From NCBI RefSeq assembly GCF_002085925.2, contig NZ_CP053562.1, positions 910,001-974,000 of the forward strand: a DNA stretch of 64,000 bases, in the 5' to 3' direction. The notes under the pieces were generated by a model. The model was not told the DNA's origin. It searched no databases and saw only the letters and a program-made list of their open reading frames with translations. The position numbers were made by a program, and so were the translations under genes. Below, piece by piece: positions 1 to 36,340 of this stretch (positions within the stretch are counted from its first letter, which is position 1; every line of letters starts with the position of its first letter). The DNA comes from Thioclava electrotropha (GTDB taxonomy: Bacteria > Pseudomonadota > Alphaproteobacteria > Rhodobacterales > Rhodobacteraceae).

Positions 1-887
1 ACGAAGCCCTTGCCCGGCGTGGGCCAGCACAGGAAATCCTGTTCCGGTACTTTGCCGGCGGCAAGGAATTCGCCCTTCGCCCAGTCGCCCATGATCTGGA
101 AACCGGCCTCGCCGCGCATTACCATCGCGGTCGCGAGGTTCCAGTCGCGTCCCGAGAAGTTCGGATCGACATAGCCGCGCAGCTTGCGCAGCTGGTCGAA
201 GGACTTGACCATCATGTCCGAGGTCAGAGCCTCCGGATCGAGCTCCACCAGCGCCTTGCGGAAGAAATCGGCGCCGCCGATGCCAAGCACCACGTCTTCG
301 AACAGCGTCGCGTCCTGCCACGGCTGACCGCCATGGGCGAGCGGTACGATGCCCGCCGCCTGCAGCTTGTCGGCGGCGGCGTTGAACTCGTCCCATGTCG
401 TGGGCATCTCCTCGACGCCCGCTTTCTTGAGCGCCTCGGGGTTGGCCCACATCCAGTCGACGCGGTGGATGTTGACCGGGGCTGCGACGTATTTGCCCTG
501 ATATTTCATGATCTCGGCCAGCGCCGGCGGCAGCACCGAGTCCCAGTTGCCTTCGTCCGCGACGGACTGAACGTCGTTCAGCGCGCCTTGCTCGGCCCAT
601 TCCTGGATACCCGGCCCTTTGAGCTGCACGGCCGTCGGCGGATTGCCGGCCACGACGCGGGCGCGCAGCGCCGTCATCGCGGCATCGCCGCCACCGCCCG
701 CGATCGGCGAGTCGATCCATTCGCCGCCCTCGGCCTCGAAGGCTTTCTTCAGTTCTCCGACGGCCTTGGCCTCGCCGCCCGAAGTCCACCAGTGCAGGAC
801 CTCGACCGTGCCATCCGCCCGTGCCGCGCTCGCTGAGAGCGCGCCGGCGACACTCACGACCGCCATCATGGCTTTACAAATGTGCAT
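1..887 (-). CDS. Sugar ABC transporter periplasmic substrate-binding protein (N-terminal part, cut by window edge)
   Basis: Reading the minus strand from the ATG at 885-887 gives MHICKAMMAVVSVAGALSAS, a Sec-type signal peptide with an AxA-like end. The mature part continues with a stretch typical of family 1 extracellular sugar-binding proteins (VEVLHWWTSGGEAKAV, then WMWANPEALKKAG). The gene runs off the left edge, so about 295 codons are visible of an expected 400-430. The start is supported by a purine-rich GGAGGAGGAGG just upstream. By family it would deliver a mono- or oligosaccharide to an ABC permease pair encoded further left. It is divergent from the P-type ATPase gene, and the two share the region with the FNR-type box. 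The exact sugar cannot be told. Confidence 0.85.
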   Translation of the reverse strand, partial: MHICKAMMAVVSVAGALSASAARADGTVEVLHWWTSGGEAKAVGELKKAFEAEGGEWIDSPIAGGGGDAAMTALRARVVAGNPPTAVQLKGPGIQEWAEQGALNDVQSVADEGNWDSVLPPALAEIMKYQGKYVAAPVNIHRVDWMWANPEALKKAGVEEMPTTWDEFNAAADKLQAAGIVPLAHGGQPWQDATLFEDVVLGIGGADFFRKALVELDPEALTSDMMVKSFDQLRKLRGYVDPNFSGRDWNLATAMVMRGEAGFQIMGDWAKGEFLAAGKVPEQDFLCWPTPGKGF

Positions 888-974
888 GTTTTCCTCCTCC
901 TCCCGGTCGAGTTCGCGGTCCATGATCGCAGCCCGACACGAGATTTAGGCTGAGACGACAGGCGCAGAACGTCA

Positions 975-988
975 TTGATCTCGATCAA
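975..988. promoter_or_regulatory. FNR/FnrL-type box TTGATCTCGATCAA
   Basis: A perfect palindrome TTGAT-N4-ATCAA, equal to the FNR/FnrL consensus, lies in the divergent region between the sugar-binding-protein gene and the P-type ATPase gene. It could serve either side. On the minus strand a weak -10-like CTAAAT follows at class II distance; on the plus strand no clear -10 is visible. Similar boxes lie at 3773 and 36400. Confidence 0.7.
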
Positions 989-1103
989 CGATTTGTGAAT
1001 CACGGGTGAGGCGGACGGGGGCAGAGGCGAGTGTGACCCGTGGCATCCCTACACAGGTCCGGGCGATTGCGCTGCCTGCCGAAAGGCTTACCATCGCCGC
1101 GGG

Positions 1104-3758
1104 ATGACTGAAGGCCTCGTGATGCAGGATACCGACGCCGCGCCAGCTTTTGCCGAAACCGCCGAGGCGGTGATCGCGCGTCTGTCCGTCCCTTTTCCGA
1201 ACGGGCTGAGCGCTGAGGAGGCCGCCACGCGCCTCGCGCGCCACGGCCCGAACGCTCTGCGTCGTCCCAAGCCCCGAAGTGCATTGCGCATCCTGCTGCA
1301 TCAGTTTCAGGGGGTGATCGTCGCGCTTCTCGTTCTGGCAACGATATTCTCGCTGGTCATCAACGATATCGTCGAGGCGCTGGCGATCCTCGTCGTGCTG
1401 CTCTTGAACGGCGCGATCGGGTTTTTCACGGAGTTGCGCGCCACCCGCTCGATGGAGGCGCTGTTCAGCGTCGCCGAGGTCCGCACCCGCGTCCGTCGGG
1501 ACGGGATGCTGATCGAGGTGGATGCCCGCGATCTCGTGCCGGGCGATCTCGTGATGCTCGAAGCGGGCGATGTGGTGACCGCCGATCTGCGGCTCGTCGA
1601 GGCGTCGGGGCTTCATTGTGACGAATCCGTGCTGACCGGCGAGTCCCTTCCGGTGCTCAAGACCACCAAACCGCTGCCATCCGATGCGGTGCTGGGGGAT
1701 CGCACCAATATGGGGTTCAAGGGCGCGGCCGTCACACGGGGGGCCGGAACCGGCGTGGTGGTGCGGACCGGCATGGAGACCGAGATCGGCAAGATCAGCC
1801 AGCTTGCGATGGCGGCCAGTACGGAACCCACACCGCTCGAACACCAATTGACGCGGCTCGGGCAGCGACTGGTCTGGCTGACGATCGTTCTTGCCGTCGC
1901 GATCATCGTGACGGGGCTGGCGCAGGGCCACCCGCTCACCAGTATGATCCAGACCGGGGTCGCGCTTGCCGTGGCCGCGATCCCCGAAGGCATCCCCGTC
2001 GTGGCCACCTTGTCGCTTGCGCGCGGGATGTGGCGCATGGTGCAGCGCAATGCCCTGATCAGTCGCCTGTCCTCGGTCGAGACGCTCGGGGCGACGACGC
2101 TGATCCTGACGGACAAGACCGGGACACTGACCGAGAACCGGATGAGCGTGGTGCAGGTCTTGCTCGATGGGGGGAGCGTGGATCTGGATGGGCCGGAGAC
2201 CGGTATCGCGGAGGACCGTCTGCGCGCCGCGTTGAAGATCGGCATGCTGTGCAACAATGCCGAGTTGGGCGATGGCGATGAGGGCCGGATCGGCGACCCG
2301 ACCGAACTGGCCTTGCTGAGTGCGGCAAGACAGGCGGGGGTGACAGAGGACGAAGCGGAGCCACGCCTGCTCCAACATGCTTTCGAGAGCGACAGCCTGA
2401 TGATGGCGACGGTCCATGCGTTGCCGGACGGGCGCGCGCTCTATGCGGTGAAGGGCGCGCCCGAGGCGGTGATCGCCTCTTGCTCCGAGGTTCTGGGGGC
2501 GGAAGGCCCGCGCCATCTGAGCGCCGAAGACAAGGCCGACTGGATCGCGCGGAACGCGGACGCCGCGAGCGAGGGGCTGCGTGGGATCGGCCTCGCGATG
2601 AAGCGGACGGACGGGACGGAGGACGCGCCCTATGAGGGGCTGACGCTTGTCGCGATTGCCTGCCTTGCCGATCCGTTGCGCGAGGATGTGCCCCCCGCGA
2701 TCGCGGCCTGCCAGAGCGCGGGGGTCCGGGTGATCATGCTGACAGGCGATCATGCCGAGACCGCCGCGCGCATCGCGAAAGATGCCGGGATCAGCGGAAA
2801 TTGTGCGGTGGCGATCGAGGGGCGAGACCTCACCGGGCTCGATCTGGAAAACGCCCCGGAGGAAACGCTCGACCGCCTGCGCAAGGCCAGCGTCTTTGCC
2901 CGCGTGGCTCCGGCGACGAAGCTGGACCTCGTCAGCTTCTATCAGCGCGAGGGGGAGACTGTCGCGATGACCGGCGACGGGGTGAATGACGCGCCGGCGC
3001 TGAAGAAAGCCGATATCGGCATCGCGATGGGCCAACGCGGCACCCAAGTCGCCCGCGAGGCCGCGCATATGGTGCTCAAGGACGACGATTTCGCGACCAT
3101 CGTCGAGGCGGTGCGACAGGGCAGGGTGATCTTCGGCAATATCCGCAAGTTCATCGTCTACCTGATGTCGTGCAATCTCTCGGAGATCCTTGTGGTCGGG
3201 ATCGCCGTGGGAGTGGGGCTTCCTTCACCGCTCCTGCCGCTGCAGATCCTCTTTCTCAATCTCGTCACCGATGTCTTCCCCGCGCTGGCGCTCGGCTTGG
3301 GGCATGGGGACGGTCATGAGATGCGCCGTCCGCCCCGTGACCGCGCCGAGCCGATCCTCGCGCGCAGGGAATGGGGGCGCATCATTGCGCTCGGGGCGAT
3401 CGTCACGCTGGCGACGATGCTGGCTTTCGGGGGGGCGCTCTATGGTTTGCAGCTTGCGCCCGCCGCTGCCGTCACCGTGGCCTTCGTCACACTCGCGCTG
3501 GGCCAGCTGTGGAATGTGTTCAACATGCGCGAGGCCGACACCCACGCCCTGCGCAACGATGTGACGCGCAACCCCTATGTCTGGGGGGCGCTTGTCCTGT
3601 GTCTCGTGCTGATCGCCGGGGCGCTGTGGCTGCCGGGGCTCTCCGATGTGCTGCAGCTACCGTCGCCCGGTATCGCGGGGCTGACGCTCGCCGGGGCGAT
3701 GAGCCTGCTTCCGCCGCTGCTGGGGCATCTGGTCGTATCGCGCGCAACCCGCAGATAA
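1104..3758 (+). CDS. Cation-transporting P-type ATPase (P2-type, Ca2+/Na+ pump-like)
   Basis: An 884-residue membrane pump with the full P-type ATPase set: actuator TGES at residues 178-181, PEGIP in the fourth membrane helix at 294-298, phosphorylation motif DKTGTLT with Asp337, and the hinge TGDGVNDAP near 623. The N-terminus has a cation-ATPase N domain ([18 protein letters not shown]) and lacks the Cys-rich metal domains of heavy-metal pumps. PEGIP and a ten-helix-like C-terminus place it with P2 pumps (Ca2+, or Na+/K+ types); the ion is not settled. An in-frame second ATG at 1122 is an alternative start. It is followed after 119 nt by the acyl-CoA ligase gene on the same strand. Pumps of this type beside low-oxygen metabolic genes would fit ion homeostasis when respiration slows, which is an inference. 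Confidence 0.9.
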
Positions 3759-3772
3759 TTTCCGCTCCCGCG

Positions 3773-3786
3773 TTGAGCCACATCAA
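3773..3786. promoter_or_regulatory. FNR-like box TTGAG-CCAC-ATCAA
   Basis: One mismatch from TTGAT-N4-ATCAA, in the 119-nt gap before the acyl-CoA ligase gene. Its centre is about 42 nt upstream of a possible start site near 3822, with a weak TAGGGA -10-like hexamer at 3810. That spacing matches class II FNR activation. Confidence 0.5.
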
Positions 3787-3877
3787 TGAAACTGCCTCCT
3801 GTCTTCGCCTAGGGAAGTTCATGGCCGTTCGTGACAGGGGCGGCCCATCGACTGGCATCACCTTGGGAGGAGGCGTG

Positions 3878-5617
3878 ATGACTTGGGCGATTATCCAGAA
3901 GTCGGATGCCGAACGGGCAGCCGCCACGCTGACCGATGAGGTCCGCGAGGCGTTCACATGGGACACCGCGCGGGCGATGCTCGACGGCTTTCCCGATGGC
4001 GGGTTGAACATCGCCTACGAGGCGGTGGATCGGCATGTCGCCTCGGGGCACGGCGGTGACGAGGCGATCCTGTGGCTGGGCAAGGACGGCGCGCGAGAAA
4101 GCCTGAGCTATGGCGATCTCGCTGCCCGGACCGCACGCTTCGCCAATGTGCTGACAAGCCACGGGCTGAAACCGGGCGATCGGCTCTTCGGTCTCGCAGG
4201 GCGCGTGCCCGATCTCTATGTCGCGGCGCTGGGCACGCTGAAGGCGGGGATGATCTTCTCGCCGCTCTTTTCCGCCTTCGGGCCTGAACCCTTGCGCACC
4301 CGGCTCGAGATCGGCGAGGCCAATGCGCTGATCACCACCGTCTCGATCTATCGCCGTAAGATCGCGGCGTGGCGCGACGAGATTCCCTCCCTGAAACTGG
4401 TGCTGATCATCGGCGACGAAGCGCCCGACGATTGCGTCGCACTCGGCCCTGCGATGGCGGCGGCCTCGGAGGAGTTCGAGACGGTCCACACGGCCCCCGA
4501 AGACCCCGCGCTGATCCATTTCACCTCCGGCACCACGGGCCGCCCGAAAGGCGCGGTGCATGTGCATAATGCAGTAGTGATGCATGCCGCCGCGGGGCGC
4601 TACGCGCTCGAGCTGACGCCGGGCACGCGCTACTGGTGCACCGCCGATCCGGGCTGGGTGACGGGCACCTCCTTCGGGATCATCTCGCCGCTGGTGAACC
4701 GGGTGCGGATGGTCATCGACGAGGCCGATTTCGATCTCGACCGCTGGTATGGCATTCTCGAGCGAGAGCAGATCGAGGTCTGGTACACCGCGCCCACCGC
4801 GATCCGGATGATGATGCGCGCAGGGAAAGAGGCGGCCGAGCCTTACGATTTCTCGAAGCTGCGGTTCATGGCCTCGGTGGGCGAGCCGCTCAACCCCGAG
4901 GCCGTGGTCTGGGGCAACGAGGTCTTCGGCAAACCCTTCCACGACAATTGGTGGCAGACCGAGACCGGCGGGATCATGATCGCCAATACCCGCGCGATGG
5001 ATGTGCATCCCGGCTCGATGGGCAAGCCGTTGCCCGGGATCGAGGCGGGGATCGTGGAGCGTGTCGATGATGGGCTGCGCGACTGCAAGCCCGGTGAGAT
5101 CGGCGAACTGGCGCTGCGCCCCGGCTGGCCCTCGATGATGCGTGCCTATCTGCACGAAGAGGCGCGCTACAAGAAGTGTTTCGTGGGTGGCTGGTATCTC
5201 TCGGGCGATCTCGCGATGCGCGACGCGGAGGGGTATTTCTGGTTCGTCGGCCGGGCCGATGACCTCATCAAATCTTCCGGTCACCTGATCGGCCCCTTCG
5301 AGGTCGAAAGCGCGCTGATCGAGCACCCGGCGGTGGCCGAGGCCGCCGTGATCGGCCTGCCCGACGAGACCGCAGGCGAGGTCGTGAAGGCCTATGTCGC
5401 GCTCAATCCGGGGTTCGAGCCCTCCGAGGACCTCGAACGCGACATCCGGGGCCTCGCGCGCAAAAAGCTCGGCGCGGCGGTCGCCCCGCGCGAGGTGGTG
5501 TTCCGCAAAACCCTGCCAAAGACCCGTTCGGGCAAGATCATGCGCCGTCTGCTGAAGGCGCGCGAGCTGGGCCTGCCGGAAGGCGATATTTCGACGCTGG
5601 AGAGTGACGAGACATGA
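3878..5617 (+). CDS. Acetyl/acyl-CoA synthetase-like AMP-forming ligase
   Basis: A 579-residue member of the ANL (AMP-forming acyl-CoA synthetase) superfamily, which activates a carboxylic acid with ATP and passes it to CoA. Visible motifs are the phosphate loop [10 protein letters not shown] near residue 216, WWQTETGG in the middle, [12 protein letters not shown] and [16 protein letters not shown] in the hinge region, and the C-terminal catalytic lysine in [10 protein letters not shown] near 551. It resembles short acetyl-CoA synthetases but is about 70 residues shorter than canonical AcsA. The ATG at 3878 is chosen because GGGAGGAGG lies just upstream; the open frame extends further left without support. 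Its stop overlaps the next start (ATGA), so it is translationally coupled to the fused E1 gene. The acyl acceptor might be CoA or the ACP encoded at the operon end; this is open. Confidence 0.88.
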
Positions 5618-7611
5618 CTGCCGATAAACCGCATCTGACCCATGACTACATCCGCGAATTGCTCACGGCGATGATCCGTGTGCGCCATTTCGAGGATAAA
5701 TGCGCCGAGCTCTACACGCAGGAGAAAATCCGCGGCTTCCTCCATCTCTACGATGGCGAGGAGGCGGTGGCCTCTGGCGTGATCCCGCGGCTTGGCCCCG
5801 AGGATCGCGTTGTGGCGACCTATCGCGAGCACGGCCATGCGTTGGTGCGCGGCGTGCCGATGGAGCGCGTGATGGCCGAGATGTATGGCAAGGCCACCGG
5901 TGCCTCGGGCGGGCGGGGCGGCTCGATGCATATCTTCGACGCTGAGCGAAATTTCTACGGCGGCAACGCGATCGTGGGGGGCGGGCTGCCGCTGGCCGTG
6001 GGGCTCGCGCTGCGCGACCGGATGATGGGTGCGCCCAATGTCACCGCCTGCTTCTTCGGCGAAGGCGCGGTAGCCGAGGGCGAGTTCCACGAGTCGATGA
6101 ACCTCGCGCAGCTCTGGTCGCTGCCGGTGCTCTTCGTCTGCGAGAATAACGGCTACGCGATGGGCTCGGCCCTGGCGCGCACCGAGGCTGTGACCGACAT
6201 CCGGCGCAAGGCGGCCGCCTATGGCACGGTGACGGAACAGGTGGACGGGATGGACGTGGTCGCGGTCGAAGCCGCCACCCGCCGCGCGCTCGCCGCGATC
6301 CGCGAGACCGGCAAGCCCTATTTCCTTGAATGCCTGACCTATCGGTTCCGGGCGCATTCGATGTTCGACGCCCAGCTCTATCGCGACAAGGACGAGGTGG
6401 CCGCGTGGCGCGAGAAAGGGCCGATCGTGCGGTTCCAGTCATGGCTCTACAAGAGCGGGCTTATGCATCCCGAGGAGGTCGCGCAGATCGAGGCGGACGT
6501 CGAAGACGAGATCGCCGCCGCCGTGGCCTATGCCGAGGCGAGCGAGTGGGAGCCGCTCGAGACGCTCACCCGTCATGTCATGGCCGAGGATCGCCCCGCG
6601 CCGCCCGCGCCGCCAGAGCCAAGCACCGAGACCGTCGAGATGACCTATCGCGAGGCGGTCAAGCAGGGCATTCGCGACGCGATGAGCCGTGACGAGCGGG
6701 TCTTCCTGATGGGCGAGGATGTGGGCGCATACGGTGGCTGCTACGCGGTCTCGAAAGGGTTGATGGACGAGTTTGGCGAAGATCGCATACGCGACACGCC
6801 GCTGTCGGAGTCCGGCTTCACCGGGGCTGGAATTGGCGCTGCGGCGGCGGGGATGCGACCCATCGTCGAGGTGATGACGGTGAATTTCTCGCTGCTCGCG
6901 CTCGACCAGATCATGAACACCGCCGCCACGATCCGGCATATGTCGGGCGGGCAGTTCGGCGCGCCCGTAGTGATCCGCCTCGCGACCGGCGCGGGCAAGC
7001 AGCTGGCGGCGCAGCATTCCCATTCGCTCGAAGGGTGGTACGCGCATATTCCTGGGCTGCGGGTCTTGGCGCCTGCCACGCTGGAGGACGCGCGCGGGAT
7101 GCTCTGGACCGCTATTGAGGATCCCGATCCGGTGCTGATCTTCGAGAACGTCATGCTCTACAACATGACGGGCCAGATCGCGGCGAATGCCGGGCCGGTC
7201 GATATCGACAGGGCCGCGATCCGGCGCGCGGGCAAGGATATCAGCCTGATCACCTATGGCGGATCGCTGTGGAAGACGCTGGAGGCGGCCGAGGTGCTGG
7301 CAGGCGAGGGGATCGAGGCGGAAGTGATCGACCTGCGGTCCCTGCGGCCGCTCGATGACGAGACGATCATGGCCTCGCTCGCGCGCACGCGCCGCGCGGT
7401 GATCGTGGATGAGGGCTGGCGGTCGGGCTCGCTTTCGGCCGAGATCGCGGCCCGGATCGGCGAGAAATCCTTCTGGCATCTCGATGCGCCGGTGGGGCGG
7501 GTTGGCTCGGCCGAGGTGCCGATCCCCTATCCCAAACATCTCGAGGACGCCGCCATTCCGCAGGTGCCCGCCATTGCCGCCGCCGTGAAGGCGGCGCTCG
7601 GGAAAGGGTGA
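5614..7611 (+). CDS. 2-oxoacid dehydrogenase E1, fused alpha and beta subunits
   Basis: A 665-residue thiamine-diphosphate enzyme that decarboxylates a 2-oxoacid (pyruvate or acetoin-type substrate) and transfers the acyl group to the lipoyl arm of E2. Residues 1 to about 325 are the alpha half: [20 protein letters not shown] at the start and the ThDP motif from [10 protein letters not shown] to [10 protein letters not shown] at about 148-180. After a Pro-rich linker ([10 protein letters not shown]) the beta half begins near residue 343 with [17 protein letters not shown] and carries GEDVGAYGG and [15 protein letters not shown]. Alpha and beta are separate proteins in most acetoin and pyruvate dehydrogenases, so this is a natural fusion. 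It overlaps the ligase gene by 4 nt and is followed 4 nt later by E2. No E3 (dihydrolipoyl dehydrogenase) is encoded here, so E3 must come from elsewhere. Confidence 0.93.
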
Positions 7612-7615
7612 CGCG

Positions 7616-8797
7616 ATGGCCGTTTTCAAGATGCCCTCGCTCGGCGCGGATATGGAGGCGGGCAAGCTGGTCGAATGGCTGGTGAAGCCCGGCGATACGG
7701 TCAAGCACGGCGATATCGTCGCGGTGGTCGAGACCCAGAAGGGCGCGATCGAGATCGAGGTTTTCGAGGACGGCGTGGTCGAAAAGCTGATGGCAGAGCT
7801 TGGGCAAGACTTGCCCGTCGGCGCGCCGCTCGCCATTATTCAGGCACCGGGGGAGGCTGCGGAGGCCCCAACGCAGACCGCGCCGCCAGTTGCGCCGCAG
7901 GCCCCCGCCGAACCTGCCGCGCCTGCGGCGGAAGCAGCGCCGCCAACCGCTCCGCCCGCAGCAACCCCATCAGGGATCGCCGCATCACCTGCCGCCAAGG
8001 CGCGCGCGGCGGAATTGGGGATCGCGCTGGAGAGCCTCACCGGCAGCGGGCCGGGAGGCGCAATCGTCCTCGCCGATGTCGAGGCGACGAAACCCGCCGC
8101 GGCAACGTCCCCGGCGCAAGATCGCGGTGCCTATCTCGCCGAGATGCGCAAGGCGATCGCCGCCGCGATGGCCCGGTCGAAACGCGAGATCCCGCATTAC
8201 TACGTCACCCACACGATCGACCTCAGCGCCGCGAGCGATTGGCTGAGCGCCGCCAATGCGGACCGCCCACCCGAAGAGCGCATCCTGATGGGCGCGCTCC
8301 TGATGAAGGCGATGGCGCTGGCCGCGCGTGAGGAAAAGGCGGTGAACGGGCATTTCGGGGAAGACGGGTTCACGCCCTCCGCGGCGATCCATCTCGGGCT
8401 GGCCATTGCGCTCAGGGGCGGTGGGCTTGTCGCGCCTGCTATCCTCGATGCCGACAAGAAGAGCCTGCAGGATTTGATGGAGGCGATGCGCGACCTCACG
8501 ATGCGCGCGCGTGCCGGGCGGCTCAAAAGCTCGGAGATGAGCATGGCGACGCTGACCTTCTCGGCGCTCGGCGAAAGCGGGGTCGAGGCGATGGCCGGTA
8601 TCATCGTGCCGCCGCAGGTCGCCATCGTGACGGCCGGTGCGCCCGGCCTGCAAGCGTTGGTGCGCGAAGGCAAGGTGATCGCCGCGCAGGCCGTCACGCT
8701 GACCCTCGCCGCCGATCACCGCGTGAGCGATGGGCGGCTGGGCTCGAAATTCCTGGCCGCGATCGACGCGAAGCTGCAAACCCCGGAGGAGCTATGA
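7616..8797 (+). CDS. Dihydrolipoamide acyltransferase E2
   Basis: A 393-residue E2 core of a 2-oxoacid dehydrogenase complex. Residues 1-78 form a lipoyl domain with the modified lysine in ETQKGAIEIE (Lys42). A long Ala/Pro linker follows (about 80-120), then a short peripheral-subunit-binding domain (ASPAAKARAAELGI near 125, GPGGAIVLADVEA). The acyltransferase domain fills about 165-393. The catalytic motif reads ADHRVSDGR with His368 and Asp372. It receives the acyl group from the fused E1 just upstream and would pass it to CoA. The stop overlaps the ACP start by 4 nt, an arrangement expected for fixed stoichiometry. Substrate (pyruvate, acetoin or branched 2-oxoacid) cannot be told from motifs. 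Confidence 0.92.
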   Translation: MAVFKMPSLGADMEAGKLVEWLVKPGDTVKHGDIVAVVETQKGAIEIEVFEDGVVEKLMAELGQDLPVGAPLAIIQAPGEAAEAPTQTAPPVAPQAPAEPAAPAAEAAPPTAPPAATPSGIAASPAAKARAAELGIALESLTGSGPGGAIVLADVEATKPAAATSPAQDRGAYLAEMRKAIAAAMARSKREIPHYYVTHTIDLSAASDWLSAANADRPPEERILMGALLMKAMALAAREEKAVNGHFGEDGFTPSAAIHLGLAIALRGGGLVAPAILDADKKSLQDLMEAMRDLTMRARAGRLKSSEMSMATLTFSALGESGVEAMAGIIVPPQVAIVTAGAPGLQALVREGKVIAAQAVTLTLAADHRVSDGRLGSKFLAAIDAKLQTPEEL

Positions 8798-9036
8798 CCG
8801 AAGACGAAATCCGCAGCGCCTATATCGAGGAACTCGTGCGCGTCGCCCCCGATCTCGATCCCGCCGAAATCGCGGGATCGGACCATCTTCAGGACGATCT
8901 CGAGCTCGACTCGATGGATATCCTGAACCTGGTGATCGCGCTCAACCAGCGCTTCGGCGTCGCGATTGCAGAGGCGGATTATCCCCAGATCGCCACACCG
9001 GATCTTGCTGCGGCGTTTCTAGCCAAGCGGGTTTGA
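8794..9036 (+). CDS. Acyl carrier protein
   Basis: An 80-residue acidic protein with the ACP fold signature: ELDSMDILNLVIALNQRFG, in which Ser40 of the DSMD motif is the expected 4'-phosphopantetheine site. Its start overlaps the E2 stop (ATGA), so it is the fourth translationally linked gene of the cluster. It is not next to fatty-acid synthesis genes and differs from housekeeping AcpP (ELGADSLDTVE). This suggests a dedicated carrier for the product of the ligase or of the oxoacid dehydrogenase. That role is inference from position. A phosphopantetheinyl transferase is not seen in the window. Confidence 0.88.
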   Translation: MTEDEIRSAYIEELVRVAPDLDPAEIAGSDHLQDDLELDSMDILNLVIALNQRFGVAIAEADYPQIATPDLAAAFLAKRV

Positions 9037-9427
9037 AGGATCGGCTTAGGCGGTCAGTTGCGGCATCCGATGTCTGATGGCGGTCGAACCGGGCTGATGC
9101 TGATGGGGAGCACCGCCGCACGTATCGCTCTAAGTCGGGGCACAAATCGGGGGGCTTCGCTTCTCGCCCGGAGGCCAGCCACTCCAAACTGACCCTGCCG
9201 GACCACCCGCTGAGCATTCAACTCAGAGGGGATTTCGGCACGCCGTGAGTCAATTCGCTGTTACCGCGGAAAAAACTGAGGAAATCCGCAATGCGCGGAG
9301 TCGCATTCCTTTGTTAACAGTGGGTTATTCGCAACAATTGTCTATTAGCAAAAATGTTATTTTCGGGAGGGCCCCGGCTGTATCACGAGCCTCTTGCGCC
9401 CTTGACGAGTTAGAGATGGAGATCGTT
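9037..9427. other. Non-coding gap with an AT-rich stretch before a small gene
   Basis: No convincing gene in 391 nt. The first half is GC-rich with no clear structure. Positions 9290-9370 are unusually AT-rich for this genome (TTGTTAACAG, CAATTGTCTATTAGC, AAAAATGTTATT) and probably hold the promoter of the small gene at 9428. No box could be assigned with confidence. Confidence 0.5.
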
Positions 9428-9631
9428 ATGATCGAAACGCGTATCGAAGTAGAGTGCTTGGAAGACGGGGCCATCCGGGTACGCAGAGGTGCGTGGTCGG
9501 ACCGTGTGCCGCGTGCGCGGATCGACCACTGGGCAGACCACTATGAGCTGATGCATCTCAATAATGGCAATGCCGGCTATCTCGAACTCGCGCATGCCCT
9601 GCGGGAGGCCAAGGCGAAACTCCTGTCTTGA
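9428..9631 (+). CDS. Small hypothetical protein
   Basis: A 67-residue protein beginning MIETRIEVECLEDGAIRVRR. The start at 9428 is favoured because GGAG lies 6 nt upstream; an in-frame ATG at 9416 would give 71 residues. The sequence suggests a short beta hairpin followed by two helices (DHWADHYELMHL and LELAHALREAKAKLL). It has no signal peptide, membrane segment or metal motif. I do not recognise the family. It sits alone between the oxoacid-dehydrogenase cluster and the amidase gene, under an AT-rich upstream region that suggests its own promoter. Amino-acid usage looks like real coding sequence. Confidence 0.55.
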   Translation: MIETRIEVECLEDGAIRVRRGAWSDRVPRARIDHWADHYELMHLNNGNAGYLELAHALREAKAKLLS

Positions 9632-17353: not shown

Positions 17354-19870
17354 ATGGATATCGTCGTCATCACCACGATTGTCGCGTCGCTTTTCCTCGT
17401 CATCGGGGTGGCGGAGCCATTGGCAGCGCGCCTCCGCCTTCCGTTCAGCGTGATCCTTGCGGGCATCGGTATTCTCATCGGTGTGGCGGCTGTGTTTTTC
17501 CTCCGGACCGAGCTGACCGACGCGCTCAATCCGGTGGCGGAAGCGATCCTGAACCTTCCGATCCGCTCGAACGTGTTTCTCTACGTGTTCCTGCCCACGC
17601 TGCTGTTTCAGGCGACGTTGGGGATGGACCTGCGCAGGATGCTGGACGACTGGGTTCCCATCCTGATGCTTGCGGTGGTGGCGGTCGTCGCGGCCACCCT
17701 CAGCGTCGGTTACGCGCTGTCCTGGGTCAGTTCGATCCCGCTCACCGCGTGCCTGCTCATCGGCGCGATCGTGTCCACGACCGATCCGTCCGCCGTCGTC
17801 TCGATCTTCCGCTCGATCTCTGCCCCGCGCCGGCTGTCGCGGATCATCGAAGGGGAAAGCCTGCTCAACGATGCCGCGGCCATCGCGCTGTTCGGGCTTT
17901 TCATGGGCTTCGTCATGATGGGCGTGCCCGATCCGAAGCTGGGCGACGCGCTCGCCCGGTTTCCGTATCTCATCCTCGGCGGCGCGTTCACGGGCTGGCT
18001 GGTCGCGCGTATCGCCGTCGGGATGATGTCGTTCTTCCGGCGCCATGAGCTCGCCCAGCTCTCGATCTCGGTGGCACTGCCTTACCTGGCCTATATCGGC
18101 GCGGAGCAAAGCATCGGCGCTTCGGGCGTCATCGCGGTGGTCGCCGCCGGTCTGACGCTGAACCTGACCGGGCCCGGACGTCTGCAACCGCAGACATGGA
18201 TCAATCTGCGCGAGCTCTGGGGCGTCCTGGCGCATTGGGCGGGAGCCCTCATCTTCGTTCTGGCAGCACTGTTGATCCCGCGACTTCTGGAGGAAATCCG
18301 GATCGGGGATATCGCCCTCGTCGGTGTCGTGGTCGTTGCGTCCATTTTCGCGCGCGCGGTGATCCTGTTCGGGCTTCTGCCACTTCTCACGGCGCTGCGG
18401 GTCTCACCCACGGTCGAGCGGCCCTATCGGGTCGCCATCCTCTGGGGCGGATTGCGTGGGGCGGTGACGCTCGCGCTGGCGCTGGCCGTGACCGAGAGTT
18501 TCCGCGTCCCCGACGAGGTTCAGCGCATGGTCGGCATCCTCGCCACCGGCTTTACGCTATTCACACTGATCGGGCAGGGCACCACGCTGCGCTGGATCAT
18601 CGGTCGGCTGGGGCTCGACCGGCTGTCGCCGATCGACGATGCGCTGTCGCGTCAGGTGGTCGCCGTCTCGCTGCAGAAAGTGCGCGAAGACCTCGCGCGG
18701 ACCACCGAGAATTATGAACTCAGCCGAGACGTCGTCCGCTCCGAAGCCAAGCGGTTCGGGGAGCGGCTGGAGGGCGCGGTCAAGGCCGCCGACGACAGTC
18801 AGGACATCCACGACCGCGACCGCATCACCCTGGGGCTTATCGCGCTCGCCGGCCATGAACGCGACACCATCCTGATGCGGGTGCGGGAGCGGACGATCGC
18901 CTCTCGCATCGCCGAACAGGTTCTGTCGAATGCCGACCGTCTGATCGAGGGCGCACGCGCGGACGGGCGGCACGGCTATAACCGGATCGCGCGGCGCAGC
19001 GTCAAATATGGCTTCGGCTTCCGCGTCGCGAATATCCTGCATCGCCGCCTCCACCTGTCGCGCCCCCTCGCGCGGATGACGGCGGACCGGTTCGAGATGC
19101 TCCTGTCGCAGCGGCTGGTACTGCGCGATCTCGGCGGCTTCATCAGCGGCCGCATCCGCCGCATTCATGGCAAGCGCGTGAGCGACCTGCTCTCTGACCT
19201 GCTGTCGCGCCGCATCGAAATCGTCGAAACCGCGCTGCAGGGGCTGCGTCTGCAATATCCCGGCTACGCCGAAGAGCTCGAACGGCGCATCATTCGCCGG
19301 ACCGCGCTGCGGCTGGAGGAGCGCGAATACGAGACGATGCGCGAAGACGGCCTGATCGGCGATGAGGTCTACACCAAGCTCCGGGCCGCCCTTGCCCAGA
19401 AGCGGTCACGCGCGGAGGATCGCCCCAAGCTCGATATCGCGCTGCGGCGCATCGAGCTCGTTCGGCAGTTTCCGCTGTTCTCCGGTCTCGATGCTCGGGA
19501 CCAGAAACGCTTGAGCCGGTTGCTCAAGGCGCGGCACGCCAACGCGGGGGAGGTCATTCTCGGCCGCGACAGCGTCGCGAAAAGCGTGTTTTTCATCGCC
19601 TCCGGGGCGGTCGAGGTTGAGGCTGCCAACCAGACGTGGCGGCTGGGTCGCGGCGAGATGTTCGGTCAGCTGTCGATCCTGATGAGACGGACGCGCAGGA
19701 CCGAAGTGCGCGCGATTACCCCATCGACCCTTCTGGAATTGGACGAAGCCCGGTTCCGTCGCCTGCTGAGCCGTAGCAAGTCACTGCAGCAAGCCGTCCG
19801 CGCCAGTGCGGAGAAACGCGGGATCGCTCCTGACGCGCTCCTCGCGGATGTCGAGAGGGCGCGTCAGTAG
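17354..19870 (+). CDS. CPA1-family Na+/H+ antiporter with C-terminal cyclic-nucleotide-binding domain
   Basis: An 838-residue protein in three parts. Residues 1 to about 415 are a CPA1 (NhaP/SOS1-like) antiporter domain with 12-13 hydrophobic helices and the key acidic motifs STTDPSAVVSIF and GESLLNDAAAIALF, whose Asp residues are expected to handle Na+ and H+. A long helical cytoplasmic region follows (about 420-695). The C-terminus (about 700-825) is a cyclic-nucleotide-binding fold: QFPLFSGLDARDQKRLSRLL, then FFIASGAVEVEA and RGEMFGQLSILMRRTRRTEV. Part order matches plant SOS1-type exchangers and some bacterial homologues. The canonical cNMP phosphate cassette (GELAL with Arg) is only partly kept as GEMFGQLSIL, so ligand binding is uncertain. 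It exports Na+ in exchange for protons and stands alone between two terminator-like hairpins. Confidence 0.9.
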   Translation: MDIVVITTIVASLFLVIGVAEPLAARLRLPFSVILAGIGILIGVAAVFFLRTELTDALNPVAEAILNLPIRSNVFLYVFLPTLLFQATLGMDLRRMLDDWVPILMLAVVAVVAATLSVGYALSWVSSIPLTACLLIGAIVSTTDPSAVVSIFRSISAPRRLSRIIEGESLLNDAAAIALFGLFMGFVMMGVPDPKLGDALARFPYLILGGAFTGWLVARIAVGMMSFFRRHELAQLSISVALPYLAYIGAEQSIGASGVIAVVAAGLTLNLTGPGRLQPQTWINLRELWGVLAHWAGALIFVLAALLIPRLLEEIRIGDIALVGVVVVASIFARAVILFGLLPLLTALRVSPTVERPYRVAILWGGLRGAVTLALALAVTESFRVPDEVQRMVGILATGFTLFTLIGQGTTLRWIIGRLGLDRLSPIDDALSRQVVAVSLQKVREDLARTTENYELSRDVVRSEAKRFGERLEGAVKAADDSQDIHDRDRITLGLIALAGHERDTILMRVRERTIASRIAEQVLSNADRLIEGARADGRHGYNRIARRSVKYGFGFRVANILHRRLHLSRPLARMTADRFEMLLSQRLVLRDLGGFISGRIRRIHGKRVSDLLSDLLSRRIEIVETALQGLRLQYPGYAEELERRIIRRTALRLEEREYETMREDGLIGDEVYTKLRAALAQKRSRAEDRPKLDIALRRIELVRQFPLFSGLDARDQKRLSRLLKARHANAGEVILGRDSVAKSVFFIASGAVEVEAANQTWRLGRGEMFGQLSILMRRTRRTEVRAITPSTLLELDEARFRRLLSRSKSLQQAVRASAEKRGIAPDALLADVERARQ

Positions 19871-29274: not shown

Positions 29275-30077
29275 TCAGCTGGACGTGACACCCGCCGACA
29301 GCTCCAGAATTTCCGTCGTCACCGACTCCTGCCGCGAAATCCGCGCGGTCTGTTGCAACGCGTCGAGCTTGCGTTCGGTCATTCCCTGAGCGGAGGCCAT
29401 GGCGAGCATCCGGGCGGTGTTTTCCGCCGCCGTGGCATGCAACGCCACGCGGCACAGCTCCGCGTGCAGCAGCTCGGCAAAGAGCGACGCGCAAAGCTGC
29501 GCGGGCGGTAGCGTCAGCAGGGGCGGCTGGCTTGGCGGCGGGGTCGACCGGGTCGGGCGGGGAAGATGCGGCGGCGGCGGGCCTTCCAGCTGCCATCCTC
29601 CGTCTGGGCGTAGAAGGCGTCGATCGGGGCGCGCCCGGCCAGTTGCAGCAGCGTCTCGGCCAGCCGGTCGGCGAAGGGCGGAACCGCCGGGCCATGCGAG
29701 GGCAGGGGGAACTGCGCAAGCGCATTCAGGCCTTGCTCGGCGGCCAGCGCCGCGCCGCGCGTGCCGATTACGACGAGACCGCCGGGCGGCGTGCCCAGCT
29801 CGCTCAGAAGCCGGGCGTTGAACGATCCCGCAAAGCCTTGTTCGGCGAGAAACAGAACGGTGAGCGGCGGCCCTTCGGGTTTGGGCGGTATGGGCGCGAG
29901 CGACAGAACCCGGTCGAGCGCACGGCTCACCGTCGCCGCATGCAGATCCACCGAGGCAAGCTCTCCCTCTGTCTGACGCACGCGCGCGCCCGCGATGGCG
30001 CGCATCGCCCGGATCACCGAGGCGAGCGTGCGGATGCTGCCGATCCGCGCTTCGATCTCGGCAAGCTGCTCGCTCAT
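29275..30077 (-). pseudogene. atpG: N-ATPase gamma subunit, reading frame broken as given
   Basis: The first frame starts at 30077 ([20 protein letters not shown]) and codes a clear gamma-subunit N-terminus, then ends early at 29514. The expected C-terminus is intact in another frame, ending at 29275: LLTLPPAQLCASLFAELLHA, then AENTARMLAMASAQGMTERK and RQESVTTEILELSAG. The gene is 803 nt, not a multiple of 3; one more base would restore a 267-residue protein of normal N-ATPase gamma length. The break lies between about 29516 and 29590, in GC-rich repeats (a GCG run at 29568-29580). It is last in atpDCQRBEFAG and overlaps the atpA stop by 4 nt. Options are a sequencing or assembly error (most likely), programmed slippage, or real decay. 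Confidence 0.75.
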
Positions 30078-31576
30078 TTCTCAGGCTCCGGCAAAAGCCC
30101 CTTCAGGCATTGCACGATCTGATCGTGCAGCCCCTCGCTGAGCGTGGCGGAGAAATCCGCGCCCGACAGCCCCGCCGCATCGAGCGCATCGGGCAGCGCC
30201 GCGCGCAGGGCGTCGATCTGCGCAGGCTCCAACCCGTCGAGAAGCCCCGTCTGCACCGCCAGAACCAGCGCCACCTCATCGGCGAGGCGCAGCGGCGCGT
30301 GCTGGATCTGGGCCAGCACCGCGCGCACCGCCCGCCCGCGCGCAAGCTGCGCCTTCACCCGCGTGTCCGGCATCCCCCCGAAGCGCGTGAAGATCTCCAG
30401 TTCGAGGAACTGCGCATAATCGAGCCGCATCGACTCCGCGGCGTCGCGCAGACTGCGCGCCTGCGTCTTGCCGCCCACCCGGCTGACCGAAGTGCCGACA
30501 TCCACGGCAGGTTTCTGGCCGCGGTTGAACAGCTTGGCGTCCAGCGCGATCTGCCCGTCGGTGATCGAGATCAGGTTGGTTGGTATGAAGGCTGCGAGGT
30601 TGCCTGCATCGGTCTCCGCAATCGGCAGCGCGGTCAGCGTGCCGCTGCCCAATGCATCCGACAGCCGCGCGGCGCGTTCCAGAAGCCGGGCGTGCAGATA
30701 GAAGATATCGCCTGGATAGGCCTCGCGCCCCGGCGTCTGGCGGGTCAGCAGCGCAAGCTCGCGATGCGAGGCGGCGTGGCGCGTGAGGTCGTCGAGCACG
30801 ATCAGCGCGTGGCCGCCGGTGTCGCGCAGCTCCTCGGCCATCGTCATGCCTGCGAAGGGCGCGAGCCATTGCATCCCCGGTGGTGTCGACGGCCCGGCCA
30901 CCACGACGATGGTGCGCGCCAGCGCCCCGTTGCGCCGAAGGGTCTCGATCACGCGCTCCACCGAGGAGGTCTTCTGCCCGATGGCGACATAGACCGAGGT
31001 CACGTCGCCGTCCTTCTGGTTCAGGATCGTGTCGAGCGCGATCGTCGTCTTGCCGGTCGCGCGGTCGCCCACGATCAATTCGCGCTGGCCGCGGCCAAGC
31101 GCGAAGAGGGCATCCACGACCAGCGTGCCGGTCTGCATCGGCTCCACCACCGCGGCACGGTCGATGATCGCCGGGGCGGGGCGTTCGACCGGGTGTTTTG
31201 CACTGGTCGTGATTGGGCCGAGCCCGTCGAGGGGCCGCCCGAGCGGATCGACGATCCGGCCCAGCAGTTCCGGCCCGACCGGCACCCGCATCACGTCGCC
31301 CGTGCCAGTGACCGCATCGCCCTGCGCGACGCCCGCGATATCGTCGAGCAGCACCGCCGCGAGGGTCTCTTCGTCGAGCACATGTACGAAGCCCGATTGC
31401 CCGCCCTCGAAGACCAGCCGTTCGCCGGCGCGGGCCTCGGGCAGGCCCGACACCATCGCGACGCCGTCGGACACGCGCTCCACCCGCCCGCTGCGGCGCA
31501 CGACGGGGCCGAGCGGCGCACGCGCGATGGCCTCGAGGCTGCGGTCCAGCCACTCGTCGGGATCATTGGGTGTCAT
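30074..31576 (-). CDS. atpA: N-ATPase alpha subunit
   Basis: A 500-residue F1 alpha-type subunit with the non-catalytic nucleotide site [13 protein letters not shown] and the alpha signature region [20 protein letters not shown] and [20 protein letters not shown]. It is intact from [11 protein letters not shown] to GLLPEPEK. In N-ATPases alpha and beta form the catalytic hexamer, driven by or driving ion flow through the c ring. The start overlaps atpF by 14 nt and the stop overlaps atpG by 4 nt. Confidence 0.94.
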
Positions 31577-32297
31577 TGGCCACCTCCTTGCGCATCCGGG
31601 CGAGATCGGCGGCCCATGAGCTTTCGAGGTGCAGGTGCTTGGTCTCCAGCGCGAGGCCGCAGATCAGCTCCGCATCCGTTTTGATCGCGGGGCGGATCTC
31701 TTCGCCCAAGGTCTTCCCGAGGCGGTCGGCGAAGGCCTCTCCGTAACCGGCCTCTGTCGCCTCGCTGATCCGCAGCATGAGTTTCTCCGAGCCGAGTGCC
31801 GCGCGATCCTCCGTGTCGAGGGCCGCGACCTGCGCCAGAAGATCCGTCGCATAGGCTTCGAGCAATGCGGGCCGCGACAGGCGCGCGCCGATGCGCTCGG
31901 CCATGCGCTGCGCCAGATCGGCGGCGCGCGCGGCATAGCGCTTCTCGGCCTCCTCTGCGCGGGCAGCGCGTTCGGCCTCTGCGGTGCGGGCCATATCGGC
32001 GGCCTCTGCGCGGGCATGGTCCAGAAGCGCCTTGCGCGCGGCTTCGGCCTCGGTCTGGGCCTGCGCGAGCATCTCGGACTTACGCGTGCCGACCTGGTCC
32101 AGCGCCGCCTCGGCCTGCGCCTTCGCCTCATCGGCCTTGCGCGCGGTCTCGCTCGCGTCGCTCAATTGCTTGTCCGCTTCGGCCTGACGCGCCTGAATGG
32201 CACTCACGATCGGGCGCCAAAGCACCCGGCTCAGAAGCCAGATCAGCACCGCCGCATTGAGCGTCTGCAGCCCGAGCGTCCACCAGTCCAGTGTCAT
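31563..32297 (-). CDS. atpF: N-ATPase b subunit (extended, delta-like C-terminus)
   Basis: A 244-residue stalk protein: one N-terminal membrane helix ([18 protein letters not shown]), a long Ala/Glu/Lys/Arg-rich coiled coil (about 35-140) and a C-terminal domain of about 90 residues. N-ATPase operons have no separate delta gene, and the extended b subunit is thought to take over its stator role; no atpH is present here either. It lies 2 nt after atpE and overlaps atpA. Confidence 0.92.
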
Positions 32298-32299
32298 GA

Positions 32300-32545
32300 T
32301 CAGCCGATGAACGGGTTGGCGAACAGCAGCAGAAGCGCGATCACGAGGCAGTAGATCGCCGTCGTCTCGATCATCGCGAGCCCGACGAAGAGCGTGCGCG
32401 AGATCGCGTTCGCGGCCTCGGGCTGACGGGCGATCGCGTCCATTGCAGCCGCGACCGAGCGCCCCTCGCCAAGCGCGGGACCAAGCGCCCCGAAGGCAAC
32501 CGCCGCGGCGGCCGAGATGACGCTCGCCACTTCAATATATTCCAT
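32300..32545 (-). CDS. atpE: N-ATPase c subunit with Na+-type ion site
   Basis: An 81-residue two-helix hairpin. Aligned to the Na+-binding c subunit of Ilyobacter tartaricus without gaps, the ligand positions are Glu27 (for Gln32), Glu60 (Glu65), Thr61 (Ser66), Thr62 (Thr67) and Tyr65 (Tyr70), in AMIETTAIYCLV. Ser66 is replaced by Thr, which keeps the hydroxyl. The loop ARQP is the c-ring polar loop. The set supports Na+ (or H+ under some conditions) translocation. It sits 2 nt from both atpB and atpF. Confidence 0.93.
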   Translation of the reverse strand: MEYIEVASVISAAAAVAFGALGPALGEGRSVAAAMDAIARQPEAANAISRTLFVGLAMIETTAIYCLVIALLLLFANPFIG

Positions 32546-32547
32546 AG

Positions 32548-33234
32548 TCAGTCCTTTCCGGATCCGTGGGAGGTTTGGGATTCCGCCACTGCCGCCGCGA
32601 TGAAGACCATGGCGAGGACGGTAAAGATGTAGGCTTGGACAAGGCCGGTCAGCAGATCGAGCGCCATGAAGGGGATCGGCACGAACAGCCCCGCAAGCGA
32701 GAGCACGATCCCGATCACGAAGACCCCGCTCATGATATTGCCGAACAGGCGGATCAGCAGCGAAAAGCTGCGCGTCAGCGTCTCGACGAGGTTCAGCGGG
32801 ATCATCAGCGGCGTCGGCATCGCAAAGCTGCGCAGGTAGCCACGCACGCCGCCCGCGCGGATGCCGTAGACGATCACCGCTACGAAGACGAGCAGCGCAA
32901 GGGCCGCGTCGGTTTCGAGGTTGGCGGTCGGCGGCTCAACGCCCGGGATCAGCGAGGACCAGTTCGCGATCAGGATGAACAGGAACAGCCCGCCGAGGAA
33001 GGTGCGGTAGCGGTCGGGCGCGACGCTCATCGTCTCGCGGATCTGGGTGTCGAGCACCGTCACCAGCAGTTCCAGCGCCGCTTGGCGTCGCCCGGGCTTG
33101 AGGCTCAGGTTCCGGGTCAGCGCGTAGCATCCGGCCACGATCACCACCATCAGCACCCATGTCGTGACGACGGGTTGCGTGATCGGCACGGGGCCGATCC
33201 AGAACAGGACGGTGGTCTCCAGCGGCGAATTCAT
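32548..33234 (-). CDS. atpB: N-ATPase a subunit
   Basis: A 228-residue membrane protein with five to six helices. The helix with the essential Arg reads LNLVETLTRSFSLLIRLFGNIMSG, in which the Arg of SLLIRLFGN is the conserved proton/Na+ gate residue. The start (MNSPLETTVLFWIGPVPITQ) overlaps the atpR stop by 4 nt. Confidence 0.94.
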   Translation of the reverse strand: MNSPLETTVLFWIGPVPITQPVVTTWVLMVVIVAGCYALTRNLSLKPGRRQAALELLVTVLDTQIRETMSVAPDRYRTFLGGLFLFILIANWSSLIPGVEPPTANLETDAALALLVFVAVIVYGIRAGGVRGYLRSFAMPTPLMIPLNLVETLTRSFSLLIRLFGNIMSGVFVIGIVLSLAGLFVPIPFMALDLLTGLVQAYIFTVLAMVFIAAAVAESQTSHGSGKD

Positions 33235-33503
33235 GCAGACCTCGCGCGGCGCAGGGTGAGCATCCGCCCGATGCCGATCCCGAGCGCCGCCGCCAGCAGC
33301 GGCACGGCACCAAGACGCGCGCAGCCCACGAGAATCCCGATCGTCAGCCCGAAACGCAGCACGGTCAGCACGATCGCCTTCAGCGCCTTGCTTTCGAGGA
33401 GCATCGCATCCGTGCCCGCCCGCAGCAGGGCGAAATGCACGAGGCCGACGCCGATGCCGAGGATCAGCGCGCCTGCGCCAAAAAGAAACTCAACCCCACT
33501 CAT
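33231..33503 (-). CDS. atpR: N-ATPase AtpR membrane protein
   Basis: A 90-residue protein with two to three hydrophobic helices (FLFGAGALILGIGVGLVHFA; AVPLLAAALGIGIGRML). It holds the position and size of AtpR, found only in N-ATPase operons, where it is proposed to help c-ring assembly with AtpQ. ATG 33503 overlaps the atpQ stop; the longer frame to 33653 is a shadow inside atpQ. Confidence 0.85.
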   Translation of the reverse strand: MSGVEFLFGAGALILGIGVGLVHFALLRAGTDAMLLESKALKAIVLTVLRFGLTIGILVGCARLGAVPLLAAALGIGIGRMLTLRRARSA

Positions 33504-33792
33504 TGCTGCTGCACCCAGCGCCAGCCCAGCCAGCACCCCACGACAAGCCCCACCATCATCAGCGCGGCGGTCCAGAAGATGCCCGACTGGGCGCTCCGGT
33601 CGATCCATCTGCCGCCCGCAGCCCCCGCGAGCATCGGCAGCACGACGATCCATCCGAGCACACCGATTTGGCCCAGCCGTCTTGCCAGTGGGATGTCACC
33701 CTCCTCTCGGGCTTTCTCGATCCGGGCGGCGTGGCGGCGCGCGGCGCTCTCCATCGGCTCCTCCGTCTGTTCCCGGTCTTCCGGCGGGTGGG

Positions 33793-33796
<4 letters not shown>
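33500..33796 (-). CDS. atpQ: N-ATPase AtpQ (AtpI/AtpZ-like) membrane protein
   Basis: A 98-residue protein: an acidic and basic N-terminal half (MTHPPEDREQTEEPMES; ARIEKAREEGDIPLARRLGQ) and two C-terminal helices (VLGWIVVLPMLAGAAGGRWI; FWTAALMMVGLVVGCWLGW). This is the AtpI/AtpZ layout seen as AtpQ in N-ATPase operons. Its ATG overlaps the atpC stop and its stop overlaps the atpR start. Confidence 0.85.

Positions 33797-36340
<2,544 letters not shown>

Follow-up and report, generated by a model that had tools for sequence, protein, structure and literature searches.

In citrate lyase and malonate decarboxylase, an acyl carrier protein (ACP) subunit acts as a private carrier, which an AMP-forming acetate:ACP ligase loads with acetyl. 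ACPs are also structural or regulatory subunits of some respiratory complexes, and LipB enzymes take octanoyl-ACP as substrate. Although pyruvate dehydrogenase (PDH) ranks among the best-studied complexes, one branch of it is accompanied by an acyl carrier of its own and by an acetate ligase; this branch occurs in alpha-, beta-, gamma- and deltaproteobacterial records as well as in Streptomyces. The part of the literature covered by our search held no description of such a cassette of acetate–CoA ligase (ACS), PDH E1, E2 and ACP. We analysed a copy from Thioclava electrotropha; the window is the whole stretch of 64,000 nt (NZ_CP053562.1, positions 910,001 to 974,000), and positions below are counted within it.

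3-923, minus strand: solute-binding-protein gene, divergent from the P-type ATPase (gene call)
975..988, no strand assigned: FNR-type box TTGATCTCGATCAA, 0 mismatches, between the P-type ATPase and the divergent solute-binding-protein gene
1104 (or 1122)..3758, plus strand: P-type cation ATPase; best profile PMR1-type, below every equivalog cut-off
3773..3786, no strand assigned: FNR-type box TTGAGCCACATCAA, 1 mismatch, upstream of ACS
3878..5617 (GTG alternative at 3875), plus strand: AMP-forming acetate–CoA ligase (ACS), short AcsA/PRK04319 type (NF003313)
5614..7611, plus strand: pyruvate dehydrogenase E1, alpha and beta fused in one chain (TIGR03182, NF006667)
7616..8797, plus strand: E2 dihydrolipoyl acyltransferase with lipoyl, E3-binding and catalytic domains (Pfam domains, conserved residues)
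8794..9036, plus strand: ACP, DSMD site with Ser40 (PF00550); helix II unlike AcpP

ACS and E1 overlap by 4 nt, as do E2 and ACP, and the gap between E1 and E2 is 4 nt. ORF and domain checks bore out the gene content, overlaps, 4-nt gap and FNR-type boxes given in a preliminary description of this DNA, and a domain search of the five genes from ATPase to ACP agreed with it in finding no E3, ketosynthase, Pta or Ack domain.

At least 583 relatives were found and the best 80 were kept; they are not a census, their genes were called with our own codon-usage caller, and all counts of loci, relatives and aligned rows below refer to these best 80. The whole ACS-E1-E2-ACP set is present in 67 of 79 loci, 53 with fused and 14 with split E1. 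ACP occurs in 69/70 evaluable module loci, the sole exception having fragmentary genes (a missing ACP is uninformative in loci L063 and L066, which stop at E2), and the E2/ACP overlap is exactly 4 nt in 65 of 69. The neighbourhood comparison, a check set beforehand, thus identifies ligase, E1, E2 and ACP as one conserved unit. Module-type E1 was found in 11 genomes of a class survey (142 genomes) and in 11 of a phylum survey (299 genomes), and in each survey exactly those 11 genomes also carried this ACP type; with two genomes common to both surveys, 20 distinct genomes remain. Because no more than 8 and 4 first-look candidates were scored per genome in these surveys, they could miss a module. 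Their queries were the E1 of the window and an alignment of 19 ACPs taken from the window and the relatives' loci, which makes the surveys not independent of those loci. Copies of the cassette are also present in beta-, gamma- and deltaproteobacterial records and on plasmids, among them a Streptomyces plasmid, and from this patchy and plasmid-borne occurrence we infer that the cassette is horizontally mobile. Celeribacter baekdonensis and a Rhodovulum strain are among its hosts. Protein distances in 54 sets correlate for ACP-E2 (r 0.80), ACP-ACS (0.78) and ACP-E1 (0.64), values that are high but unspecific and uncorrected for kinship.

The ACP matches PF00550, and its predicted model (pLDDT 95.8) has the four-helix ACP fold; with the phosphopantetheine Ser this marks it as a carrier protein. 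Ser40 is kept in 70/70 ACPs. Fold and DSxD site are common with the AcpP of type II fatty-acid synthesis (FAS), but acidic residues at positions 45, 51, 52 and 53 are found in only 1, 4, 17 and 7 of 70 cassette ACPs versus 30/30 each in AcpPs (the 30 best-scoring of a family survey of 149 genomes, and hence the most typical AcpPs). Moreover, the cassette ACP has an invariant Ala-Pro after helix I, where AcpP differs, and scores 37.9 bits against TIGR00517, below the cut-off of 70.45. Acidic helix-II residues are a feature of fatty-acid-synthesis ACPs. Because they are lost here, we rejected a FAS-type identity, and the ACP looks dedicated. Phage records held no relative of it at 1e-6.

The gene first described as an acyl-CoA ligase does encode a ligase, whose identity we narrow to acetate–CoA ligase: it scores 867 bits against NF003313 (cut-off 729), matches PDB 9g79, and has the catalytic Lys and acetate pocket of the AcsA type, residues whose roles we assume. 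The Trp pair of NWWQTE is kept in 72/72 ACS rows, and the catalytic Lys553 in every one of the 70 rows that have a residue at that position. Arg528, which aligns with Salmonella Acs R584 and presumably shares its CoA role, is Arg in each of the 71 rows that cover the position, so ACS can probably use CoA. E1, with alpha and beta parts, passes the pyruvate-type profiles TIGR03182 (421.5 > 393.85) and NF006667 (402 > 321). E2 falls below every NCBIfam E2 cut-off (best TIGR01349, 225 bits versus 445) and so outside the named acetyltransferase equivalog; it is lipoylatable, has an E3-binding domain, and keeps lipoyl Lys42 (71/72), catalytic His368 (70/72) and Asp372 (69/72). E3 gave no tblastn match at 1e-4 in the 79 loci, and two E3 genes (lipoamide dehydrogenases) over cut-off lie elsewhere in the genome. 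The genome also has its own alpha/beta-type PDH set (C1:2429870-2433591), to which the cassette PDH is accessory. Since ACS is of acetate type and E1 of pyruvate type, the acyl group handled is probably acetyl.

FNR-type boxes at ≤2 mismatches number 15 in the window versus a mean of 10.6 expected, and 7/100 shuffles reach 15; the count is not clearly above chance. Support from boxes therefore comes from the two good ones in promoter regions and from those in relatives. A box (TTGAYN4RTCAA, ≤1 mismatch, –160 to –30 of ACS) precedes ACS in 44/69 loci, versus 127/957 other genes of the loci and 72/3160 random stretches, an enrichment that upholds the earlier observation of FNR-type boxes ahead of the module; the 25/69 loci with no such box in that interval count against FNR/FixK control. 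The genome encodes two Crp/Fnr proteins, each carrying a Cys cluster at the N terminus and an ETVSR helix. A promoter-region box, enrichment in relatives and a regulator in the genome together suggest that the cassette is probably switched on at low oxygen. The box at 975-988 lies ~52 nt from the called start of the divergent solute-binding-protein gene and may serve that gene.

Overall, we suggest, with a probability of roughly 0.4, that ACS-E1-E2-ACP is an accessory, horizontally mobile acetyl module under FNR/FixK-type control, in which the ACP would be a private acetyl carrier between E2 and ACS. E1 would decarboxylate pyruvate and then acetylate the lipoyl arm of E2, which a housekeeping E3 encoded elsewhere would reoxidise, and the ligase would interconvert acetate and activated acetyl via acetyl-AMP. 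ACP is probably made in step with E2 through translational coupling. Holo-ACP, private to the module, would take acetyl from E2 (or the ligase) and hand it to the other enzyme, the transfer and its direction both being part of the proposal, and acetyl on ACP would thereby be kept from the common CoA and fatty-acid pools. Against a private carrier count the probable use of CoA by ACS, the retained catalytic residues of E2, which would still allow the ordinary CoA reaction, and the finding that every counted locus encodes E2 and ACP separately, with no fusion seen there. In an unlikely variant, ACP would replace CoA as the acetyl acceptor of PDH: E2 would acetylate holo-ACP, and the ligase would run backwards, with AMP and pyrophosphate, to acetate and ATP. 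If true, this would give oxygen-short cells a CoA-sparing, self-contained path from pyruvate to acetate, ATP and NADH.

The rival that survives best, though we find it doubtful, is that the enzymes use CoA normally while the ACP serves the E2 core as a structural or regulatory subunit, its acyl chain, if it has one, not being a metabolic intermediate. The Arg that ACS keeps at the putative CoA site, the conserved catalytic residues of E2 and the overlap of the ACP gene with E2 all fit, as do fold-search hits on the mitochondrial ACPs of complex I, though the latter follow from the common fold; an invariant phosphopantetheine Ser (70/70) goes beyond the need of a purely structural role.

Quite unlikely is a transfer of acetyl from the ACP to fatty-acid, polyketide or PHA synthesis, as primer or low-oxygen carbon store. 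The ACP fold and acetyl-forming partners would suit it, but the acidic helix-II residues are lost, which also makes the fatty-acid or polyketide link of the preliminary description less likely, and the five genes include no ketosynthase; nor is one among the 25 commonest Pfam families (25 out of 107 and out of 104) of the immediate flanking genes. We judge it still less likely that the ACP is the octanoyl donor for lipoylation of the E2 lipoyl domain. The substrate of LipB and the E2/ACP overlap speak for such a donor; an ACP lacking the AcpP acidic helix II makes elongation on it unlikely, LipB is encoded elsewhere in the genome, a piece of it gave no tblastn match at 1e-4 in the 79 loci, and the ligase would be left unexplained.

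It is highly improbable that all five genes form one functional module with the pump serving ion balance. FNR-type boxes precede both pump and ACS, and P-type ATPase homologues occur in 6/59 long loci (tblastn, few query proteins), but a P-type ATPase lies directly upstream of ACS in just 2/63 relatives, one of them on the opposite strand (63 of 66 upstream neighbours were taken, leaving out one very short and two overlong and doubtful). The 119-nt gap between pump and ACS, which holds its own box, indicates that they are probably not one operon. We therefore dropped the pump as a core member, which the first description had made it: the conserved unit is the four genes ACS-E1-E2-ACP, and the pump is peripheral. 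That the ACP is a chance neighbour is refuted by its presence in 69/70 evaluable loci and by the identical genome sets of the two surveys.

At least one of six stress/low-oxygen markers occurs in 20/59 long loci (tblastn, few query proteins): stress protein 3, Crp/Fnr 2, Hsp20 3, phosphoenolpyruvate synthase 12, P-type ATPase 6 and LonB-type 6. This count weighs against the module reading; with the diverse families of the immediate flanking genes, it led us to reject a uniform stress island round the cassette. Phosphoenolpyruvate synthase is the most recurrent marker, counted in long loci only, and in Photobacterium it lies 12 nt downstream of ACP. The Streptomyces plasmid copy lies amid universal stress proteins and an alcohol dehydrogenase. 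Its likeness to the OsdR region of Streptomyces, a hypoxia/dormancy island, consists in the kinds of neighbouring genes: predicted OsdR targets include stress proteins, zinc dehydrogenases and pyruvate phosphate dikinase, and the main text of the paper that lists them lacks the term 'acyl carrier' (PMC5069765).

If the carrier takes acetyl from E2, the cassette would be a variant of textbook CoA chemistry and a new means of sustaining energy metabolism at low oxygen. Otherwise, an ACP that binds this PDH complex would still represent a new role for the protein.

Among known systems, citrate lyase and malonate decarboxylase offer a works-like analogy only; the five genes encode no subunit of either enzyme, and the cassette belongs to neither system. 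With the short AcsA type (NF003313) the cassette ACS shares the catalytic Lys and Trp pair, passing its cut-off, and differs in that its gene overlaps PDH genes and has an ACP nearby. With the alpha/beta-type PDH complex (PdhA/PdhB/PdhC) the cassette has in common E1, a lipoyl-E2 with E3-binding domain and an external E3, and the same chemistry is expected of it. It differs from that complex in the fusion of E1 alpha and beta in most loci, in an E2 below the cut-offs, in the acetate ligase and in what appears to be a dedicated ACP.

The five genes and two FNR-type boxes of the preliminary description, with their coordinates and overlaps, were all borne out by ORF, domain and box checks. They are listed here with other features of the window.

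975-988: FNR-type box, no mismatch, before the P-type ATPase gene
1104-3758, + strand: P-type ATPase (pump)
3773-3786: FNR-type box, one mismatch, before ACS
3878-5617, + strand: acetate--CoA ligase (ACS)
5614-7611, + strand: fused pyruvate dehydrogenase E1
7616-8797, + strand: dihydrolipoyl acyltransferase (E2)
8794-9036, + strand: acyl carrier protein (ACP)
9416-9631: short ORF (71 aa) past the ACP gene, called as coding; matches neither Pfam nor NCBIfam
17354-19870: sodium/hydrogen exchanger whose C-terminus carries a cyclic-nucleotide-binding domain (domain match)
30074-31576 and 34200-35591, - strand: two ATP-synt_ab genes (domain match) with small called genes between, within 29514-36340; these may belong to a second ATP synthase operon, N-ATPase-like in type
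46195-52273, - strand: three consecutive genes of the alpha-amylase family (domain match), probably a glycogen/trehalose cluster

By profile, the ligase belongs to the short AcsA type of AMP-forming acetate--CoA ligases (NF003313, 867 bits versus a cut-off of 729). The fused E1 scores above the cut-offs of both the pyruvate-specific alpha profile TIGR03182 (421.5 versus 393.85) and the beta profile NF006667 (402 versus 321). Family searches found lipoyl, E3-binding and catalytic domains in E2, which reached none of the named E2 cut-offs in the family profile search, and a PP-binding domain in the ACP. As previously noted, E3 is absent here; two lipoamide dehydrogenases score over the cut-off elsewhere in the genome.

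We searched for relatives with E1 as the query, one genome per species. At least 583 were found, and the best kept represent 79 distinct loci, two of which (L055 and L076) are MAG contigs whose labels, Chitinophaga and Bacteroidetes, are taken as given. E1 identity over the best segment is at least 61% in 73 of the 79. The order ACS, E1, E2, ACP is found in 67 of these 73 (53 with a fused and 14 with a split E1), and two further loci have E1, E2 and ACP but start too late for a called ACS. Three of the 73 (L010, L018 and L068) stop before the ACP position and were left out of the evaluable loci. The sole remaining exception is L049, where the ACS and E1 ORFs are fragmentary and neither E2 nor ACP was found. 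Hence, the ACP is present in 69 of 70 evaluable loci, and its association with E1, which a random neighbour would not keep, is retained. Neither ACS nor ACP was found in the other six of the 79 loci (E1 identity ≤44%), in two of which, L063 and L066, the contig ends at E2. Four-nucleotide overlaps join E2 to ACP in 65/69 loci and ACS to the fused E1 in 51/56. The conserved unit is thus four genes. Of the five-gene module proposed initially, ACS, E1, E2 and ACP are conserved together but the pump is not: a P-type ATPase is the immediate upstream gene in only 2 of 63 loci examined (once on the opposite strand), and homologues occur within 6 of 59 long loci.

In a separate survey of the class (142 genomes), 11 genomes, with 12 modules between them, have E1 matches of at least 60% identity, and exactly these 11 exceed 80 bits with the ACP profile (next best, 50.5 bits). 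Eleven of the 12 ACPs lie 1.1–1.4 kb downstream of E1; the twelfth (genome G235) was located at the beginning of a different contig. In a second survey, of the phylum (299 genomes), module E1 and ACP are found in the same 11 genomes, all adjacent, with two more ACP matches at 56 bits in genomes where no module E1 was listed. The surveys share two genomes, G176 and that of the window, giving 20 together. In the 13 genomes per survey whose listed E1s have only 36–46% identity, no module-type ACP was found at those scores. One genome of the class survey (G264) carries two module-type E1 sets, on contigs C29 and C122, each followed by its own ACP.

Occurrence of the cassette is patchy (11/142 genomes), and it is also plasmid-borne. 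Records of Leisingera, Sinorhizobium fredii, Photobacterium, Azospirillum and Streptomyces fungicidicus contain all four genes, a distribution that suggests horizontal spread; E1 was also matched on a plasmid of Embleya. On S. fungicidicus plasmid p1 (L132:1-13889), the genes around the cassette include four for universal stress proteins and one for an alcohol dehydrogenase.

The enzymes retain their key residues. Both Trp of the ACS motif NWWQTE are invariant (72/72), one being the acetate-pocket Trp of Salmonella Acs, and the catalytic Lys is unchanged wherever a row has a residue there (70/70). The Arg aligned with Acs R584 is likewise kept in 71/71, which argues that the ligase could still use CoA. 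E2 keeps the lipoyl Lys (71/72), catalytic His (70/72) and Asp (69/72). Arg222 and Arg267 are common to module E2s; in four control rows taken from E2-like ORFs of the window's genome, two of them the same gene, position 222 is Lys in three and Arg in the fourth, and position 267 is Glu or Pro.

In the ACP, the phosphopantetheine serine Ser40, Ala18-Pro19 and Asp39 are invariant (70/70), and Asp42 is found in 68/70. In the more distant copy from Streptomyces, Ser40, both aspartates and Pro19 are unchanged, but Val replaces Ala18. Structure prediction confidently yields a four-helix ACP (pLDDT 95.8) in which Ser40 lies where helix II begins; TM to known ACPs reaches 0.90. The protein falls far short of the cut-off for AcpP, the ACP of type II fatty-acid synthesis (37.9 versus 70.45). 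Acidic residues at positions 45, 51, 52 and 53, E41, E47, E48 and E49 in E. coli numbering, occur in 1, 4, 17 and 7 of 70 module ACPs versus 30/30 each in the AcpPs with the 30 highest scores in the family survey. Most module ACPs have Arg at position 53 (52/70). Fatty-acid-synthesis enzymes use such acidic AcpP residues. Given the invariant serine, the predicted fold and the loss of most of these acidic residues, the module ACP should be converted to a holo-protein that fatty-acid synthesis would use poorly.

Most likely, E1 and E2 would produce acetyl from pyruvate, the ligase would make or use activated acetyl, and the ACP would serve as a private holo-carrier within reach of both enzymes. 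The carried group would be acetyl because both enzymes are of acetate/pyruvate type; the ACP may then move it between E2 and the ligase, in either direction. A place at the pyruvate/acetate node fits the recurrence of phosphoenolpyruvate synthase as a neighbour (12/59 long loci). In Photobacterium sp. DA100 (L135:9526-11934), a co-oriented phosphoenolpyruvate synthase/dikinase-type gene lies 12 nt past the ACP, as though it belonged to the cassette operon. The main rival explanation, a plausible one, is that the ACP has a structural or regulatory role on the E2 core, with the CoA chemistry being ordinary.

The motif TTGAYN4RTCAA (≤1 mismatch) lies 30–160 nt upstream of ACS in 44/69 loci, versus 127/957 other genes of the loci and 72/3160 random stretches. 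For the strict TTGATN4ATCAA (≤1 mismatch), the counts are 25/69, 82/957 and 28/3160. Two Crp/Fnr proteins encoded in the genome combine an N-terminal Cys cluster with an ETVSR helix. Together, boxes and regulators support a predicted FNR/FixK-type control of the cassette. The perfect FNR box lies ~52 nt from the called start of a divergent solute-binding-protein gene (3-923, - strand) and may serve this gene beside or in place of the P-type ATPase.

A full-text search of open papers, seen mostly as listings and covering little of the subscription literature, returned no description of the cassette. In Rhodobacter capsulatus, FnrL activates pdhA indirectly, and the passages concerned leave the cassette unmentioned (PMC9603517). 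Overall, the cassette can be described as pyruvate dehydrogenase plus acetate ligase in a variant form whose new element is the dedicated carrier.
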